From: a bacterium
GTDB lineage: Bacteria; Planctomycetota; J058; JAJDCP01
Length of the DNA: 26,133 nt
Direction: 5' to 3'
Assembly (NCBI GenBank): GCA_030428695.1
Contig: JAUIEM010000099.1
Span: 1 to 26,133, forward strand
Part shown: positions 10,701-26,133 of the stretch, in pieces
How positions within the stretch are numbered: position 1 is the first letter of the stretch
How the letters are laid out: every line of letters starts with the position of its first letter
The notes under the pieces: generated by a model
Seen by the model: the letters and a program-made list of their open reading frames with translations, nothing else
Database searches by the model: none
What the model was told of the DNA's origin: nothing
Position numbers and translations under genes: made by a program

Positions 10701-10879
10701 TGAGCGGGGTCGCCCCGGCCTGGGAAGGGCGCGTCGAGGGCGAGCGCCTCGATGTCGACCTGTTGCTGCGCACCGGCCTGTTGCAAGGCGACCCGCTGCG
10801 GTTCTTCCACCAGGACGGCGAAGTCCTGGAGCTCGACGAATTCCAGATCGATAAGCTGCCTCCCTGGGAGGGATTGTGA
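7760..10879 (+). CDS. Giant membrane-anchored protein in the LptC/LptA position
   Basis: The protein is 1039 residues starting with GTG, in a 4-base overlap with the kdsC stop. One N-terminal hydrophobic segment (FCLYVAPAALLILIGV, ~10-25) after KRRSR predicts an inner-membrane anchor or uncleaved signal, with the rest in the periplasm. The body is made of many beta-rich stretches with recurring phrases such as ADSLVVRG, LSADSLHSD, LSGDSLLLDS, AESLYYFVQADSLVVKGDV and RLSGSRAG. This repeated D/S-L-x-L-x-G texture is what LptA/LptC/LptD-N (OstA) beta-jellyroll domains look like. No catalytic motif is visible. In proteobacteria kdsC is followed by lptC (~190 aa) and lptA (~180 aa), so a single much larger bridge-like protein is the inferred role, in LPS transport or assembly. 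The family was not confirmed. AsmA-like or other beta-rich envelope proteins are alternatives. The stop shares one base with the next ATG. Confidence 0.8.
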   Translation: MKRRSRLVRFCLYVAPAALLILIGVESAAVPDFADARLPESAAFGGLRAEEFAVDLALARPRQRLSDSGRTWLVPAPYEVLLYTRDARTFGISYETSRQDWLLEGVRARLVRAHAHVRTDTVYAAGPEGPETLWVQTRRPEPSPDQETLWVTARRAALRYFPQEHPPDPAGGGLSVDFLGNCGVESSHGLLLAMTEGYLEIPASRRFDASDSLMLEHLRMRSRAPVRFGLPALLGRAGGVRVRGLMDTLRLVAPVRLVLDTTLATSAGGAALAAHIAGETAWIAEPSGRAWGLRSLEDTWIYTASQSAGAFDSVEVVFPGLTEAWESDLPLARLLATAPFASLGPAPRYLQVDSARLRLGPRSAPVADSTVPGLPPLLSGEGDLRLVEALGRELFALYSGWEVRAPHARLDTLALELRGPGLNAWKRATDEQLAAERLVYTFADGGLRAAGEVLCVVADSLLGGPLGDSTRIRLRGDQLDARLRHIEGEATVDSLVVRGRPLRGAGVYGEGRLQCGVARYLRGRRLEIGGTLPDGGQPFLELGPHRLSADSLHSDLASQKTRLLGAVATFLSPGAQPLPGAESLAFRVLRGEADSVWLQAESYTDWHKLRRRRSALFHPWRLDRLSSAAWAAAGEKARGTRARELVLFGRPALVRARVDALPGDSLGFDSLEVGLLTLDAARIGLDLVAGRYELTRGARPARLELAAMRLSGDSLLLDSERRVWSARGDVSARLRPSLFGASGPGAVELRCARFEAGADSAGGFRFEATPLPGEPLVFDWLGGQARLPSLAFADSVLIAGGGIALDLGAQRFSAESLYYFVQADSLVVKGDVHAVFEWQDGAWDARCESLSLRLTREQTLLGFTARGALQPAVLLGPVGPDGSRLRLWSDRLSGSRAGVPGSWTVRASRVRNAPGVSQVPFTASASDISFSERLQRVRLDGAVRVSLVHAGGATSQLDADHAEVSLDGGREPRELAMWGGLSGVAPAWEGRVEGERLDVDLLLRTGLLQGDPLRFFHQDGEVLELDEFQIDKLPPWEGL

Positions 10880-11487
10880 TGCGTGTTCTTCTGTTGTCCC
10901 TCGTCTGCCTGGCCGCGGTCGGCTGCCAGCAGGACCTGATCGAGCCGGAGTTCGACGTCAACGGCAAGACGATGGTGGTCATCCCCTTCAAGTCCTGGAA
11001 GGACGGCTACTTCGACAGCAAGCAGGGCATCGACCTCGCCAAGGCGATCACCCTGCGGGTCAAGCTCAACGCCGACTCCGAAGAGCTGAAGATGGTGTCG
11101 ATGGAAGAGCTCGAGAAGCTCGACGAGCAGCAGGACATCCGCTCGATGAGCTGGGAAGAGCTCGCGACCGAGCTCGGCGCCGACTACGTCTGCATCGGCG
11201 AGATCTCCGACTTCGAGACCAGCCTCGCGACCGATATCGGCCTGATGCGCGGGAAGATGCGCTGCGAGGTGCAGGTCCTCGACGCGACCCGGAACAACCG
11301 CCTCGTGTTCAACGAGGAGGACGAGTTCCGCTACCCGGACGTGCAGACCAACGAGTTCATCGGCTACTCGACCCTGAACAAGACCGAAGCCGACATCGAG
11401 CGCGGCCTGCTCGCCTCCGCCGCGCGCGCGCTCGCCCTGCACTTCTACTCCCACTTCCCCGACGAGGCGAAGAAGCCGGTCCGCTAG
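10879..11487 (+). CDS. Lipoprotein, CsgG/LpoB-like fold suspected (paralogue 1)
   Basis: The protein is 202 residues. GGGAGGG lies 6 bases before the ATG at 10879, which overlaps the previous stop as TGATG; the GTG three bases upstream is too close to the ribosome site. The signal peptide MRVLLLSLVCLAAVGC ends in a lipobox with C16 as the lipidated residue, followed by QQ, which favours the outer membrane in Lol-type sorting. The mature part starts IEPEFDVNGKTMVVIPFK, then GIDLAKAITLRV, EELATELGADYVCIGEISDFE and a beta strand MRCEVQVLDATRNNRLVF. This order (V-V-x-P-F, helix, LGADYVxxGEI, then a variant of xVxVxDAxTG) is the general pattern of the CsgG/LpoB group of periplasm-facing lipoproteins. 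The exact family is not identified. It is co-transcribed with the giant envelope protein and is paralogous to the next gene. Confidence 0.8.
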   Translation: MRVLLLSLVCLAAVGCQQDLIEPEFDVNGKTMVVIPFKSWKDGYFDSKQGIDLAKAITLRVKLNADSEELKMVSMEELEKLDEQQDIRSMSWEELATELGADYVCIGEISDFETSLATDIGLMRGKMRCEVQVLDATRNNRLVFNEEDEFRYPDVQTNEFIGYSTLNKTEADIERGLLASAARALALHFYSHFPDEAKKPVR

Positions 11488-11504
11488 CCCCCAAGGAGCC
11501 CACC

Positions 11505-12110
11505 ATGCGCGTCCTGTCCCTCAGCCTGTGCGCCCTCACCCTGCTCGCCGCCGGGTGCACGGAGAGTATGATCGAGCCGCAGTTCGACGTGATGGGCAAG
11601 CGGATGGTGGTCATCCCCTTCAAGACCCACCGCGAGAACCACTTCCAGCACCAGGACGGCATCAAGCTCGCCCGCAACATCACCAACGAGGTGCTGACCA
11701 AGAACCTGCCCGAAGAGCTCGACATGGTCGACAGCAGCGAGCTCGAGAACCTCGAGAACGAGGTCGACGTCCTCGCCCTCGGCTGGGAGGAGATCGCGAC
11801 CGAGCTCGGCTGCGACTACGTCTGCGTCGGCGAGATCATCCGCCTGCAGACCCGCCTGCCCAGCGACATCGGCCTGGCGCGCGGGAAGATCCGCCTCGAG
11901 TACTCGGTGTACGACTACACCCGGGACGGCGAGGTGGTCTTCTCGGAGAAGCGCGAGTACATGTACCCCGACCCGCGCAGCAAGGACTACCTCGACTACA
12001 GCGTCGTCGAGTCGGACGACGACGACGTCCGCCGGGGGCTGCTCAAGCTCGCGGCGAAGAAGATCGCGCTGAACTTCTACTCGCACTATCCCGAGGATCA
12101 GTGGGAGTAG
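11505..12110 (+). CDS. Lipoprotein, CsgG/LpoB-like fold suspected (paralogue 2)
   Basis: The protein is 201 residues, with AAGGAG (11493-11498) 6 bases before the ATG and a 17-base gap from its paralogue. The lipobox is LLAAGC with C18. The mature sequence aligns with the previous lipoprotein along its whole length without large gaps. Shared blocks include MIEPQFDV, MVVIPFK, the EEIATELG-DYVCVGEI segment, SDIGLARGKIR, and the C-terminal LNFYSHYP against LHFYSHFP. The pair clearly arose by tandem duplication. This copy is more acidic near its end (ESDDDD) and has Cys in LGCDYVCVGE. Position at the end of the kdsC transcript suggests an outer-membrane partner of the same envelope system; LptE-like or Lpo-like roles are possible but unproven. 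Confidence 0.8.
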   Translation: MRVLSLSLCALTLLAAGCTESMIEPQFDVMGKRMVVIPFKTHRENHFQHQDGIKLARNITNEVLTKNLPEELDMVDSSELENLENEVDVLALGWEEIATELGCDYVCVGEIIRLQTRLPSDIGLARGKIRLEYSVYDYTRDGEVVFSEKREYMYPDPRSKDYLDYSVVESDDDDVRRGLLKLAAKKIALNFYSHYPEDQWE

Positions 12111-15353: not shown

Positions 15354-15456
15354 GTCTGTGCCGGCGTGGCCGCGTGGCTACGGGCTGGAGAGCTGCGCCG
15401 TGGCGCCGGATTCCATCCGCCGCAGCGTCCCCGGAGGCCTCGCGCAGGGAGCAGAG

Positions 15457-16689
15457 ATGCGTTGGCTCGCCCGTCTGGTGTCGACCTACCGCGCCGCCTT
15501 CGCCGGCCTGCCGCGCCCGATCTGGTTGCTCGCCCTGCTCGCGCTGGTCAACCGGGCCGGCTCGATGGTCATCCCCTTCGTCGCGCTCTACCTCTCGACC
15601 CAGCTCGGCTACTCCAAGGAGGAGGTCGGCTTCTTCCTCGCCGCTTTCGGCTTCGGCGGCCTGACCGGCTCGGCCCTGGGCGGACCCCTGACCGACCGCA
15701 TCGGCGCGGCCCGCGTCGGCGCCCTGTCGCTGTTCGCGATGGGAGCGCTGTTCGCGCTCTTCGGCCAGCTGAGCGGGACCGTGGCGATCGTCGCCTGTCT
15801 GTTCGGCATCGCGCTGTGCGCCCAGGCCTTCCGGCCCGCGGTCGGGACGCTGACCGCGGAGGTGTGCCCGGCCGAGCTGCGCACCCGCGCCTTCGCCCTG
15901 ACGCGCCTCGCGGTCAACCTCGGCATGGCGATCGGGCCGGCGGCCGGCGGCTTCCTCGCCGTCTACAGCTACCAGTGGCTGTTCTGGATCGACTGCCTGA
16001 CCTGCGTCGCGGCCGGCGTCCTGATGCTCCTCTGGTTCACCGGCCGCCGCGCCACCGCGCCGGTCCCGAGCGCCCGCCTGCCGGGCCAGAAGGGGGTCCC
16101 GCCCTGGCGGGACGAGGTGTTCCTGTGCGTGTGCCTGCTGACCTTCCTCAGCGCGATGATCTTCTTCCAGACGTTCTCGACCCTGCCGCTCTTCCTCGAG
16201 GAGGTCTGGGGCTGGGCGGAGAGCGACTTCGGGCTGCTGTTCGCGATCAACCCGGTGCTGATCGTGCTGTTCGAGATGGTCCTGATCCACCGCCTCACCC
16301 GGCCGAACCCGCTGCGCTTCGTCGGGCTGGCGGGGGTGCTGCTCGGCGTCGGTTTCGCGCTCTTCCCCCTCGGCAGCGGCTTCGCGTGGGGGACCCTGTG
16401 CATCGTGATCCTGACCTGGGGGGAGATGCTCGAGCTGCCGCTGTTGATGGGCTTCGTCGCCAACCGCGCCCAGACCGCGACCCGCGGCCGCTACATGGCC
16501 GGGATCGCGCTGACCTTCTCGCTGGCGATGATCTGCGCGCCGGTGCTCGGCACGCAGATCGCCGAGCGCTTCGACTTCGCGACCCTGTACGGGGCCTGCG
16601 CCGTCCTCGGCGTGGCGGTCTGCATCGCCTACCAGCTCGTCGCCCGGGAGGTGGATGAGGAGCTGGCCGCGAGCGAGGCGCCGGACTGA
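15457..16689 (+). CDS. MFS transporter
   Basis: The protein is 410 residues with about 12 hydrophobic segments, typical of the major facilitator superfamily. The loop after the second segment, GGPLTDRIGAARVGAL, is the MFS motif A. A long basic loop (RRATAPVPSARLPGQKG) falls in the middle, between helices 6 and 7, as expected. The first helices (LVNRAGSMVIPFVALYL) resemble the multidrug/sugar efflux branch, but substrate and direction cannot be told. The ATG at 15457 follows AGGGAG (15446-15451) by five bases. A longer in-frame reading from 15358 has no ribosome site and adds non-membrane residues. The downstream riboswitch controls the next gene and not this one, so a vitamin link is not implied. 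Confidence 0.9.
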   Translation: MRWLARLVSTYRAAFAGLPRPIWLLALLALVNRAGSMVIPFVALYLSTQLGYSKEEVGFFLAAFGFGGLTGSALGGPLTDRIGAARVGALSLFAMGALFALFGQLSGTVAIVACLFGIALCAQAFRPAVGTLTAEVCPAELRTRAFALTRLAVNLGMAIGPAAGGFLAVYSYQWLFWIDCLTCVAAGVLMLLWFTGRRATAPVPSARLPGQKGVPPWRDEVFLCVCLLTFLSAMIFFQTFSTLPLFLEEVWGWAESDFGLLFAINPVLIVLFEMVLIHRLTRPNPLRFVGLAGVLLGVGFALFPLGSGFAWGTLCIVILTWGEMLELPLLMGFVANRAQTATRGRYMAGIALTFSLAMICAPVLGTQIAERFDFATLYGACAVLGVAVCIAYQLVAREVDEELAASEAPD

Positions 16690-16721
16690 GGAATTCCCGG
16701 GCGCGCGCTCTCCCTCCCTGG

Positions 16722-16727
16722 TAGACT
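16722..16727 (+). promoter_or_regulatory. Candidate -10 element for the riboswitch transcript
   Basis: TAGACT lies just upstream of the structured leader; a start near 16734 would place the riboswitch at the RNA 5' end. The same hexamer occurs at 18346 and TAGAAT at 7253. No clear -35 is seen. Confidence 0.4.
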
Positions 16728-16733
16728 CGCCCC

Positions 16734-16890
16734 CTCACGGGCTCCATCGAAGGATGGAAACGGGAAGCCGGTGCGAATCCGGCGCGGACCCGCCGCTGTG
16801 ATCGGGGACGAAAGCGACACGTAGCCACCCGCTGTCGGGGAAGGCGTCGCCGGTAGGACGAACCGAGAGCCAGAAGACCGGCCCGTGTTG
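16734..16890 (+). ncRNA. Cobalamin (adenosylcobalamin-type) riboswitch
   Basis: The leader contains the hallmarks of the B12 riboswitch aptamer. These are a 5' hairpin (CCATC/GGATGG around 16750), the core block GGGAAGCCGGTGCGAATCC (16762-16780) running into CGGACCCGCCGCTGTGA, and a B12 box AGCCAGAAGACCGGCC at 16868-16883. It lies 80-90 bases upstream of a lipoprotein gene on the same strand. Binding of a cobalamin should lower expression of that gene, as is usual for this class. The boundaries are approximate. Confidence 0.93.
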
Positions 16891-16902
16891 CAGTGGAGGT
16901 TG

Positions 16903-16951
16903 CCGGAAGGGGTTTCCGGAAGCTCCGCCGCAGCGACGCCAGGGGCGTCGC
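16903..16951 (+). promoter_or_regulatory. Riboswitch expression-platform hairpins
   Basis: Two stems lie between the B12 box and the start codon: CCGGAA/TTCCGG (16903-16919), and the stronger GCGACGCC/GGCGTCGC with a three-base loop (16933-16951). The second ends 5 bases before GAGGAG (16957-16962). No T run follows, so control of translation start is more likely than an intrinsic terminator. This is inference from base pairing by eye. Confidence 0.5.
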
Positions 16952-16969
16952 GACACGAGGAGTCTACCT

Positions 16970-18331
16970 ATGATGCGCACCCGCGCGGCAGCCCTGGGCT
17001 GCCTGTGGGCGGTGCTGATCGTCGCGGGATGCAGCCGCAGCGACAGCGACCGCTCGAACCCGACCGTCGGCACCGTCGAGCTCGACGCCGCCACCAACTT
17101 CGAGGCCGGCCTGGATCTGCAGGACCTGGTCGTCGCCTGTCCGAGCGAGCGGCTCTACACCCTCGAGTTCGATTTCGCCGGCCACGCCTTCGTCAAGACC
17201 TTCGGGATCGCCTTCGACGGCACCCTGAGCACCCTGTTCAACGCCGACCTCAGCGCGGCGCTCGGCGGCAACCTCGCCAACGACCTGTCCGTGTTCTCCG
17301 ACTCGAACGCCGTGTTGGTCGCCCAGGCGCCCTTCGGCGGCAACGGCGAGGAGGCCCTGTACGCCTTCGATCCCCGCTCCGCGAGCCCCTCGACGAGCTT
17401 CCGCGACGTCAGCGCCGACTCGCTGAGCGCGCCCTTCGTCGACATGGCCGGCGACACGATGACGCTGCTGTCCGAGGCGGGCGACACCCTCGACACCGTG
17501 ACGATCTCCTTCCTCGAAGACGCGGTCGCCTACGGCGCGCGGCTGTTCGCGGTCAGCTCCAACGTGCAGTTCTCGGCCGGCCCGACCGTGCGTCAGCCGG
17601 GCACCATCCTGGTCTACGGCTACGACCGCTCGAGCAACACCATCCTGAGCAACGAGGGCGTGATCTTCACGGGCAAGTCCGGCACCACCGCCTCGGGCGT
17701 CTACAACCCGGTCAAGCTCGAGGTTGCGACGGTCTCGGGCCGCGACGTGCTGATCGTCACCAGCGCCGGCAGCTTCAGCGGCGACGGCACGGTCGAGATC
17801 ATCGACCTGAGCAGCTTCGAGACCATCGCCTCGCTGGCGGTGTCCGGGGCGCCTCTCAGCAACATCGCGGTCGACGAGGCGGGCGGCTTCATCTACCTCG
17901 GTGACGGCCTGACCAGCGTGATCCACGCACTCCAGCTCAGCTTCCCCCGCGGCAGCGCGAGCCTGAGTGCGGTCGCGGGCAGCCCCTTCGACCTGCCCGA
18001 CGGCCTCGGGGGCACCGGCTCCTTCGTCGGCGGCCTCGAGGTCTCCGACGACGGCACGCGGCTGGCGGCGGTCAACTTCATGGGCAACGAGCTGACGGTG
18101 TTCTCGTTGACCGGGGGCGTCCCGACCGCGATCGTGTCGGAGTCGCTGCAGCACGACACCGGCCTGCCGGGCAGCACCACCCAGCGCAGCGTCGCCCTCG
18201 GCATGCGCTGTGGCGTCGCCGGCATCGACTACAGCGGGCCGGACGTCTACCTCGGCGTGATCGACCTCGACCCGTCGGCGCAGACCGTCAGCGGCGTCGG
18301 CTCGGGCCTCGACGCGGCCTTCGCGTACTGA
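16970..18331 (+). CDS. Riboswitch-controlled beta-propeller-like lipoprotein (BtuG-like candidate)
   Basis: The protein is 453 residues, with GAGGAG (16957-16962) seven bases before the first of two adjacent ATGs. The signal peptide ends in a clean lipobox, VAGC with C21, followed by Ser, which favours the outer membrane. The mature part is beta-rich with blade-like repeats: LYTLEFDFAGHAFVKTFGI, VLVAQAPFGG-EALYAFDP, GRDVLIVTSAGSFSGDGTVEIIDLSSFE, NIAVDEAGGFIYLGDGLTSVIHAL, and VGGLEVSDDGTRLAAVNFMGNELTVF. These alternate an observation phrase with a value phrase, as in YncE/lactonase-type propellers. A cobalamin riboswitch precedes it directly. In Bacteroides, BtuG is a surface lipoprotein with a seven-bladed propeller that binds B12 tightly and works with the BtuB receptor. 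The same architecture and regulation make a B12-capture role plausible, although no btuB, btuF or btuCD lies in this window. Sequence homology to BtuG was not tested. Confidence 0.85.
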   Translation: MMRTRAAALGCLWAVLIVAGCSRSDSDRSNPTVGTVELDAATNFEAGLDLQDLVVACPSERLYTLEFDFAGHAFVKTFGIAFDGTLSTLFNADLSAALGGNLANDLSVFSDSNAVLVAQAPFGGNGEEALYAFDPRSASPSTSFRDVSADSLSAPFVDMAGDTMTLLSEAGDTLDTVTISFLEDAVAYGARLFAVSSNVQFSAGPTVRQPGTILVYGYDRSSNTILSNEGVIFTGKSGTTASGVYNPVKLEVATVSGRDVLIVTSAGSFSGDGTVEIIDLSSFETIASLAVSGAPLSNIAVDEAGGFIYLGDGLTSVIHALQLSFPRGSASLSAVAGSPFDLPDGLGGTGSFVGGLEVSDDGTRLAAVNFMGNELTVFSLTGGVPTAIVSESLQHDTGLPGSTTQRSVALGMRCGVAGIDYSGPDVYLGVIDLDPSAQTVSGVGSGLDAAFAY

Positions 18332-18345
18332 TCGCGCAGGTCGTG

Positions 18346-18351
18346 TAGACT
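18346..18351 (+). promoter_or_regulatory. Candidate -10 element for the small membrane protein
   Basis: TAGACT, identical to the element at 16722, lies 18 bases before the start codon. The predicted transcript would begin near the ribosome site, so the leader would be very short. No -35 was recognised. Confidence 0.3.
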
Positions 18352-18369
18352 GCTTGGGGGAGGACGGAC

Positions 18370-18561
18370 ATGGGGAAGAAGAAGGCGCGCCGGAAGAAGA
18401 AGCCGGAGGGCCGGCCCCCCGAGCGGAGAAAGCTCCCCCGCTGGCAGGTCGTCCTGCTGGTGCTGTTCGGCCTCGCCATCCTGTCGCTGACCATCGGCCT
18501 CGCCCTCGCGGAGATGCAGCGCATGGCCGAGACCGACACGACGCCAGTGCTGCCGCCGTAG
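18370..18561 (+). CDS. Small single-pass membrane protein
   Basis: The protein is 63 residues. A strong ribosome site (GGGGGAGG, 18356-18363) lies six bases before the ATG, which is the main reason to accept it. The first ~24 residues are very basic (MGKKKARRKKKPEGRPPERR), then one hydrophobic helix (WQVVLLVLFGLAILSLTIGLALA), then a short tail ending in TTPVLPP. By the positive-inside rule the basic end is cytoplasmic. No family was recognised. It lies 38 bases after the propeller lipoprotein and could be co-transcribed with it or use its own promoter. A CG-rich inverted repeat (GGCCG/CGGCC near 18590) follows the stop and might end the transcript. Confidence 0.65.
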   Translation: MGKKKARRKKKPEGRPPERRKLPRWQVVLLVLFGLAILSLTIGLALAEMQRMAETDTTPVLPP

Positions 18562-18721
18562 CGGGCCGGAAAGGAACAAGGAGCAGAGGCCGCAGCGGCC
18601 GAACATCGCCTCCGCGAGGTACCCCTCCCCTACACGTTTGTTCTCAACTGCTCGAATCTTCTGTAGGCAAGGTTTACTCCCGCCCGTTGATCTTGGACAG
18701 AACGTACGCTGAGATCAGTCT

Positions 18722-18781
18722 TTTCCCTCACCTCCGCGCCTCTGTCCCTCTGCGCCTCTGCGTTAAGACTCTTTATCCTGC
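18722..18781. repeat. Relic of a dispersed CGCCTCTG-type intergenic repeat
   Basis: CGCCTCTG occurs at 18737-18744 and 18753-18760 within CTCTGCGCCTCTGCGTTAA-like text. The minus strand reads as LNAEAQRDRGAEVRE, a phrase that I recall as a common spurious translation of intergenic repeats in many phyla. It is not a gene. Confidence 0.5.
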
Positions 18782-19015
18782 CTTCGTCACACCCCGATGA
18801 CAATCGACAACCCGAAAGCAAGCAACAGTCCTTCCTCTGCCTCTTCTTGTCTCTTCCTGGATCCTGGTTCCCTGGTTTCCTTATAGATTCTTTCTTGTCT
18901 TCGCCTTCTTCTTCCTCTTCATCTACGCTCCCCTTCCAGTTCCCGCTCCGGGCCCCAAGACCGCTCCCTCTCCCTTTTTGAGATTCTGCTGGACAGGGAG
19001 CATCCTCCGCGGGAA

Positions 19016-19033
19016 GATAACCGAACGATCGTT
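19016..19033 (+). promoter_or_regulatory. tetR promoter/operator
   Basis: AACGATCGTT (19024-19033) is a perfect palindrome 21 bases before the regulator's ATG, directly downstream of a possible -10 GATAAC (19016-19021). It shares its core with the longer palindrome at 19733-19752. Autorepression by the TetR protein is the simplest reading. Confidence 0.55.
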
Positions 19034-19054
19034 TTCCAACCTGAGGACCACGCG

Positions 19055-19690
19055 ATGCCCCGCCCCCCGACTCCCGGCCTGCGCGACCGCATGCTCGACG
19101 CGGCGGAGAGTCTGTTCGTCCAGCGCGGCTTCCACGGCGTCAGCGTGCGCGACATCGCCCGCGCCGCCGAGACCCCGGTCAGCAACCTGTACGCCCACTT
19201 CGGGAACAAGCAGACGATCTTCTCGACCCTGCTCGAGCGCTACGAGGCGGCCTACTTCGACGTCGACACGCCGATGGCCCGCGTGTTCGCGAGCTTCCGC
19301 CTGCCGGAGTCGATCGTCGAGATCGGCTTCGCGATCGGCGAGACCGTCTCCGCCTTCGCCTCCTACCTCAAGCTGATCTACGTCGACGTCGTCGAGTTCG
19401 ACGGCGTGCACATCGGCCGCCTGTTCGCGACCATGCGCAGCCGCTACGAAGAGAAGCTCGGCCCCTACCTGCGGAAGCTGCAGGAGGAAGGGAAGCTCGC
19501 CGCTGGCGACCCGACCCTGGCGCTGATGACCATCAGCCTGAGCTACTTCAACTACTTCACCGTCGAGAAGCTGTTCGGCGTGCGCCGCCACTTCGGCGTC
19601 GACGACGACGAGGCGGTGCGCGCGATGGGCCGGCTGTTCGAGTCCGGCCTGATGGCTCCCCTTCCGCAGATGGCCCCGATCCAGGAGTAG
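19055..19690 (+). CDS. TetR-family transcriptional regulator
   Basis: The protein is 211 residues. The N-terminal TetR helix-turn-helix is intact: RDRMLDAAESLFVQRGFHGVSVRDIARAAETPVSNLYAHFGNKQTIF (~10-56), with the usual YAHFGNK turn. The remaining ~150 residues are the helical ligand and dimer domain, which has no diagnostic motif. GAGGA lies seven bases before the ATG. The stop (TAG, 19688-19690) is inside the spacer between the next gene's ribosome site and its ATG. Palindromes containing AACGATCGTT or its extended form lie upstream of this gene and at the start of the next, so it probably represses itself and the lipid/PHA operon. An acyl-CoA or fatty acid is a reasonable guess for the ligand, from the genes it precedes. 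Confidence 0.9.
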   Translation: MPRPPTPGLRDRMLDAAESLFVQRGFHGVSVRDIARAAETPVSNLYAHFGNKQTIFSTLLERYEAAYFDVDTPMARVFASFRLPESIVEIGFAIGETVSAFASYLKLIYVDVVEFDGVHIGRLFATMRSRYEEKLGPYLRKLQEEGKLAAGDPTLALMTISLSYFNYFTVEKLFGVRRHFGVDDDEAVRAMGRLFESGLMAPLPQMAPIQE

Positions 19691-24646: not shown

Positions 24647-26133
24647 GTGTCGAGCTACGGAAGCAGCAACGCAGTCATCGAGCAGCCGACCGGAGATCCG
24701 GAGCCGCCGCGCGCCTCGGAGCTCGAGGTCGACCTCGAGAAGCTCGTCGAGGACGCCAACGCGCGCGGCGGACAGCTGACCCACGACGAGCTCTACGCGC
24801 TCATCTCGGGTCAGGGGATGGACAGCCCCTCGTTCGAGCAGATCAACGAGATCCGGTCGGCGCTCGAGGAGAAGGGCATCGAGCTGACCGAGGACGACGA
24901 CGACGACGACCGTCCGCGGCGCGAGGAGCCGGCGGCGGCGCGCTCGGAGAAGGAGTCGAAGGAGCAGCGCAAGCGCGCGCGCTCCGAGCGGATCGACGAC
25001 CCGGTGCGGATGTACCTCCAGCAGATGGGCGAGATCCCGCTGCTGACGCGCGACGAGGAGATCCGCCTGGCGAAGAAGATCGAGCTGACCCGCAAGCTGT
25101 TCCGGCGGACGCTGATGCTCTCGCCGCTCGCGGCGCGCGAGGCGGCGGCGATCCTGCGCGACGTGCTCGAGCGCCGGCTGGCGTTCGAGCGGACGCTGCG
25201 GATCAGCCAGGACCTCGGCAAGCCCGAGCTCGAGCAGCGGCTGCCGACGAACCTCGACACGCTGGTCGAGCTGCTCGACTGCAACGAGGCCGACTACGAG
25301 CGGATCCTCGCCAAGGCGGGCAACAAGGCCGACCGCACCCGTCTGCAGTGGCAGATCTACCGCCGGCAGACGAAGAGCATGAAGCTGATCGAGGAGCTCC
25401 AGATCCAGATCAAGAAGTTCAAGCCGATCATGGAGAAGCTCGAGCAGTTCCACCGCCAGATGGAGGGCGCGCGCAAGCGCTACGAGGAGATGGCGGCGCG
25501 CGGCTCGGGTGCCAGCCGGGCCGAGGTCGCGCAGGCCAAGGACATCCACTTCGGCCTGATGGCCCTCGCCGGCGAGTCGGGCGACGACCTGCGCCAGCGC
25601 CTGGCCGAGGTCCGCCGCCGCTTCGCCAACTACGAGCAGGCCAAGCGCGAGCTGTCGTCGGGCAACCTGCGGCTGGTCGTCTCGATCGCCAAGAAGTACC
25701 GCAACCGCGGGCTGACCTTCCTCGACCTGATCCAGGAGGGCAACACGGGCCTGATGAAGGCGGTCGAGAAGTACGAGTACCAGCGCGGCTACAAGTTCAG
25801 CACCTACGCCACGTGGTGGATCCGGCAGGCGATCACCCGCAGCATCGCCGACCAGGCGCGGACGATCCGCATCCCGGTCCACATGATCGAGACGATGAGC
25901 AAGCTGCGCAACGCCGCCAAGCGCCTGACGCAGGAGAACGGCCGCGAGCCGACCGTCGAGGAGATCAGCGAGGCGACCGAGATCAGCGTCGACGAGACCC
26001 GGCGCGTGATGAAGATCAGCAAGCTGCCGATCTCGCTCGACCGGCCGATCGGCGACAGCGACGACTCGTACTTCGGCGACTTCATCGAGGACGAGAACGC
26101 GGAGAGCCCGGTCAACTCGGCGGCGCAGGAGAT
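24647..26133 (+). CDS. rpoD: RNA polymerase primary sigma factor, 3'-truncated
   Basis: The first 495 codons are present; the frame is open at the window end, so regions 3.2-4 are missing. The GTG at 24647 has GGAGG six bases upstream. Residues ~20-80 resemble sigma region 1.1 ([24 protein letters not shown], then a helix ending in KGIELTE), followed by six consecutive Asp (83-88) and a charged linker. Region 1.2 is [30 protein letters not shown] long non-conserved insert (~145-335) follows. Region 2 is strongly conserved: [13 protein letters not shown] through [20 protein letters not shown] to the -10-recognition helix [20 protein letters not shown]. Region 3 begins with [14 protein letters not shown]. 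The presence of region 1.1 and the insert marks a group 1 (housekeeping) factor. It lies 33 bases after the PHA operon, with no obvious promoter of its own in that gap. Confidence 0.96.

Follow-up and report, generated by a model that had tools for sequence, protein, structure and literature searches.

The stretch of DNA analysed here (contig JAUIEM010000099.1; 26,133 nt, called the window in the following, and all statements on the window cover these 26 kb) carries a cobalamin riboswitch followed by the gene of a predicted lipoprotein with a predicted seven-bladed beta-propeller fold. We give an even chance (probability about 0.5) to the interpretation that this protein is an envelope lipoprotein which captures corrinoids, is made when B12 is scarce and works in the manner of BtuG while standing outside the BtuG family. 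BtuG is the surface B12-capture lipoprotein of gut Bacteroides (PDB 3DSM). The riboswitch match, the gene order, the lipobox and the predicted fold are the established part of this interpretation. A B12-sensing switch in front of the gene of a propeller lipoprotein from an undescribed family suggests, without proving it, B12 capture by a protein that has no sequence relationship to BtuG.

The elements that carry this interpretation are the following:

16722..16900, + strand: cobalamin riboswitch aptamer, RF00174 (cmscan, full-length model).
16736-16742 paired with 16881-16887, + strand: P1 helix of 7 bp (arms located in the sequence).
16868-16883, + strand: B12 box AGCCAGAAGACCGGCC (read from the sequence).
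16957..16962, + strand: Shine-Dalgarno-like GAGGAG (from the sequence, 7 nt before the ATG).
16970..18331, + strand: acidic predicted lipoprotein of 453 amino acids, predicted seven-bladed beta-propeller (ATG open reading frame (ORF), lipobox, structure model).

The aptamer matches the RF00174 model over its full length (model positions 1-189 of 189) with 103.6 bits and an E value of 3.2e-25. This score exceeds the gathering cut-off of 31.5 bits, and the match is the only one at gathering scores across the window. As a control, the leader of E. coli btuB was scored against the same model and reached 87.0 bits, also at full length; it belongs to the same aptamer family, but it controls the TonB receptor itself. 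A previous interpretation made from the letters alone (the sequence-only reading) had already proposed a cobalamin riboswitch with a recognizable B12 box, and both were recovered; the start it had assigned, 16734, is close to the 5' arm of P1. The aptamer lies in the region 16690-16969 between the gene of a major facilitator superfamily (MFS) transporter and the 453-amino-acid ORF. This ORF is the next gene on the riboswitch strand and starts 69 nt past the aptamer; the pairing of riboswitch and gene is known from one locus.

The third-position GC content of the ORF is 0.97, matching that of the neighbouring genes. Its product starts with a signal-peptide-like N-terminus and the lipobox LIVAGC ending at Cys21, in agreement with the lipoprotein proposed by the sequence-only reading. 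The residues at the lipidated cysteine are CSRSDSD, and the column of this cysteine is conserved in at least 90% of 69 sequences of a distantly related family described below. The mature protein has a pI (isoelectric point) of 4.05, a charge of about -34 and no tryptophan. These figures for the mature part were used for the window protein only; the lipobox pattern recognised 16 of 72 proteins and miscut the homologues P0002 and P0003, and perhaps further ones. Beyond Cys21 there are two cysteines, Cys57 and Cys414. Both close homologues keep them unchanged, and a disulfide between the two may close the propeller.

The structure model is a seven-bladed propeller (predicted local distance difference test (pLDDT) 74, predicted template modelling score (pTM) 0.80), the blades not having been counted by a tool. 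The propeller of the sequence-only reading thus agrees with the predicted fold. When the model was compared with known structures, YncE was the best match (11% identity) and WD40 chains were nearly equal. Since both match almost equally well, the fold does not identify the ligand. BtuG was absent among the 50 structures listed of 974 aligned ones, which is no evidence of a different fold.

How could such a protein work? The riboswitch in the 5' leader would control the exported, lipid-anchored propeller protein, and the cell would make it under corrinoid scarcity. The protein would sit on the outer membrane, bind corrinoids and hand them on to an outer-membrane transporter encoded elsewhere. 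Repression by B12, the location on the outer membrane with exposure at the surface, the binding of corrinoids and the partner transporter are what we infer here.

Among the matches listed from a search of about 5.8 billion proteins (limited to 7995 candidates) there are two close homologues, P0002 and P0003, with 58% and 56% identity; both contain tryptophan, unlike the mature window protein. A profile search also reached P0004 (E 9.6e-3). BLASTP of the window protein against P0004 gave 6e-10 across residues 191-441, and a profile-profile comparison between the window group (A1) and 14 proteins from the family of P0004 gave a probability of 98.5 over 246 columns. A joint-profile search yielded 69 proteins (P0004-P0072). 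Source names are attached to five of them (Myxococcota, Myxococcales, Deltaproteobacteria or 'bacterium'); these named proteins are annotated as hypothetical. These 69 proteins form a family of lipoproteins, mostly of 500-555 amino acids, with almost no Pfam matches and with a conserved DSDGDG-type motif which we take to be calcium-site-like.

Neither Pfam nor NCBIfam contains a family matching the window protein, and in both cases this holds even at E<=0.1. At the same Pfam threshold two of the 69 relatives match NHL (best 0.0022) and one a DNA polymerase lambda domain (0.081). Profiles of the 69 and of the 14 members found nothing at E<=1 among the sequences of solved structures; the 3-member profile found two weak matches to maltose-binding protein (E 0.24 and 0.58). 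Scans of genome contigs for close relatives, with the single protein and with the 3-sequence profile, returned 176 and 41 pattern-matching stretches, respectively, and two scans of viral contigs 149 and 42; none of these was confirmed. A tblastn search of plasmids with P0004 gave no match. Judged by sequence, the window protein belongs to a family not placed by these searches.

Most genes under cobalamin riboswitches have to do with B12 uptake, B12 synthesis or enzymes that work without B12. From the riboswitch, a surface B12 scavenger is a fair inference. We also considered a more far-reaching version, namely that the locus represents a second, independently evolved family of propellers capturing B12 at the surface, with its own riboswitch and with the transporter at a distance, and that the Myxococcota relatives are possibly capture proteins for other ligands. 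This is a tentative proposal to which we give less than even odds.

A different explanation would be that the protein is an envelope protein of the YncE/YVTN type that does not bind B12 and has another role (structural, enzymatic or in connection with a metal or siderophore), being switched on at low B12 as part of a pathway that replaces or supports a B12-dependent one. That YncE is the top structural match speaks for this, as does the NCBIfam survey at E<=0.1, in which 9 of the 69 relatives match the generic YVTN repeat TIGR02276 (best E 1.3e-5) and one the YncE model (0.096); counted beside the YVTN repeat, five models are each matched by one to three of them. Moreover, the distant family far outnumbers the group of the window protein, and no link to B12 was seen in it. 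Against this, an exported lipoprotein fits uptake best among the usual targets of the riboswitch. The window protein differs from the YncE/YVTN propellers by its lipobox, and the identity is the 11% given above. In the open literature we found no paper coupling a cobalamin riboswitch with YncE. We regard a role without B12 binding as rather unlikely.

Riboswitches of this class usually repress in the presence of B12, and for the present locus the sign is taken from the class and would presumably be the same. The leader contains two further candidate elements:

16722..16727, + strand: weak candidate -10 element TAGACT (sequence and spacing only).
16884-16891/16950-16957, + strand: alternative helix of 8 bp, putative expression platform (from folding).

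The alternative helix and the 3' arm of P1 use part of the same strand and are mutually exclusive. A switch requires such a pair of mutually exclusive states. The picture from folding alone is ambiguous. For a transcript from 16733 the forced minima are -141.1 kcal/mol for the P1 state and -138.4 kcal/mol for the alternative helix. If transcription starts at 16722, P1 has a mean probability of 0.00 and the alternative helix one of 0.49; the values are 0.13 and 0.51 for a start at 16730, and 0.35 and 0.28 for a start at 16733. Longer transcripts thus tilt the folding toward the alternative helix, and the predicted outcome hinges on the transcription start. Kissing-loop contacts lie outside this calculation. 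In the calculation the P1 state does not shut off the Shine-Dalgarno-like sequence: its two central G are about 0.44 unpaired in this state versus less than 0.1 in the alternative state, which leaves the usual repression unsupported. The leader of 264 nt is not clearly more stable than shuffled sequences (z -1.25; 19 of 200 fold equally well).

If TAGACT were used as -10 element, the transcript would begin right at the foot of P1, near 16733-16735; this assignment is weak and comes from sequence and spacing. A consensus scan found no sigma-70 promoter. TAGACT is not more frequent than expected by chance, as 28 of 100 shuffles reach three copies. The window contains three copies of GTAGACT versus 0.62 expected, and 1 of 100 shuffles reaches three; the copies are situated at 16721-16727 (+ strand, before the riboswitch), 18345-18351 (+ strand, before an ORF of 63 amino acids) and 16961-16967 (minus strand). 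The leader is flanked by a perfect 7-base inverted repeat, TAGACTC at 16722-16728 and GAGTCTA at 16960-16966, the second arm of which shares bases with the end of the Shine-Dalgarno-like GAGGAG. When the longer transcript is folded, pairing of these arms prevails. We set it aside because the first arm would not be transcribed if TAGACT is the -10 element, which is a guess; should the first arm belong to a promoter, the repeat is perhaps due to chance.

The genes on both sides of the riboswitch and the propeller gene are:

15358-16689: MFS transporter gene (PF07690).
18370..18561, + strand: ORF of 63 amino acids, N-terminus basic, a single hydrophobic (transmembrane) segment, third-position GC content 0.97.

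The sequence-only reading had described the propeller gene as the only gene behind the riboswitch. It is the next one, but "only" is uncertain because the 63-amino-acid ORF starts 38 bases further downstream. This ORF may be co-transcribed with the propeller gene, and we asked whether the working part of such an operon could be the small protein, or both proteins together, for instance as a small envelope accessory and its propeller partner. The short gap, a GGAGG shortly upstream of the ATG and the high third-position GC content are in line with this, and a consensus scan of 16400-19100 revealed no terminator-like site on the plus strand (two on the minus strand). However, the GTAGACT at 18345 may be the ORF's own -10 element and thereby a separate promoter, and the ORF has no Pfam match. 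We consider an operon of this kind improbable.

The fold class, the lipoprotein signal and the riboswitch would also allow the protein to be read as a genuine BtuG that has diverged very far. We consider this very improbable, since none of the three profiles found a BtuG chain at E<=1 among the solved-structure sequences (BtuG being present there according to the library description; an alignment of BtuG was not compared directly) and since, in a survey of 313 human gut genomes, BtuG was found in Bacteroidetes only, where btuB operons contain 106 of the 112 homologues (PMC6143338).

Of the likeness to BtuG proposed by the sequence-only reading, fold class (as predicted) and lipoprotein signal stand, and family membership is not supported. 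The window protein shares with BtuG, described as a seven-bladed propeller lipoprotein in the same source, the predicted number of blades, the lipid anchor and the location in a riboswitch-controlled locus. It differs in lacking a sequence match, a BtuB recognised in the window and any tryptophan in the mature part. The pocket of BtuG2 is narrowed by Trp194, Trp272 and Tyr316 and binding takes place on a negative face (PMC10404256). The absence of tryptophan is a weak point against BtuG because the two close homologues have it.

XusB (DUF4374) is a lipid-anchored seven-bladed propeller feeding a TonB transporter and shows that lipoproteins of the propeller type work for iron-siderophore receptors as well (PMC13142918). 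It resembles the window protein in anchor and fold, but binds iron-siderophores and not B12, and no sequence match between the two was found. In Bacteroides thetaiotaomicron (B. theta), cobalamin is bound by ten proteins from the B12 operons (PMC12751083). The exported B12 binders with the domain DUF4465 (BtuH) are reported to comprise more than 1000 members in eight bacterial clades (PMC13398666). BtuH has another domain, and the window protein has no Pfam match to DUF4465. In the gut genomes mentioned above propeller-type capture was seen in Bacteroidetes alone, although the DUF4465 domain is reported from the eight clades. In the open literature, judged by title and start of the abstract, no description of a gene like the present one was found.

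Members of microbial communities trade B12 as a nutrient. If our interpretation is true, propellers that capture scarce cofactors evolved at least twice, and an unnamed protein family gains a concrete ligand that can be tested cheaply.

Across the window 20 ORF stretches, some of which overlap or are non-coding frames, were surveyed with Pfam. The sequence-only reading had noted the lack of a BtuB nearby, and this applies within the window, to which the claim is limited: no TonB-receptor domain was found in these stretches, and no TonB receptor, BtuFCD component or B12-synthesis gene is among the recognised genes. Apart from the MFS transporter, these code for an acyl-CoA ligase, a TetR regulator, alpha/beta hydrolases (one of them PhaC-like, below the cut-off of that model), AnmK and KdsC, and further for a family-3 glycosidase, a beta-lactamase-fold hydrolase, DUF922 and TraB-like proteins and a sigma-54 activator on the minus strand. 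At the right edge of the window (24647-26131) the translation reads as the start of an rpoD-like gene, perhaps of a Planctomycetota type; a plasmid search with it covered no record to 80% and decides nothing. Two tandem paralogous small lipoprotein-like ORFs of about 200 amino acids each, without a clear family, lie at 10876-12110 (the second from about 11500) and have the motif MVVIPFK in common.
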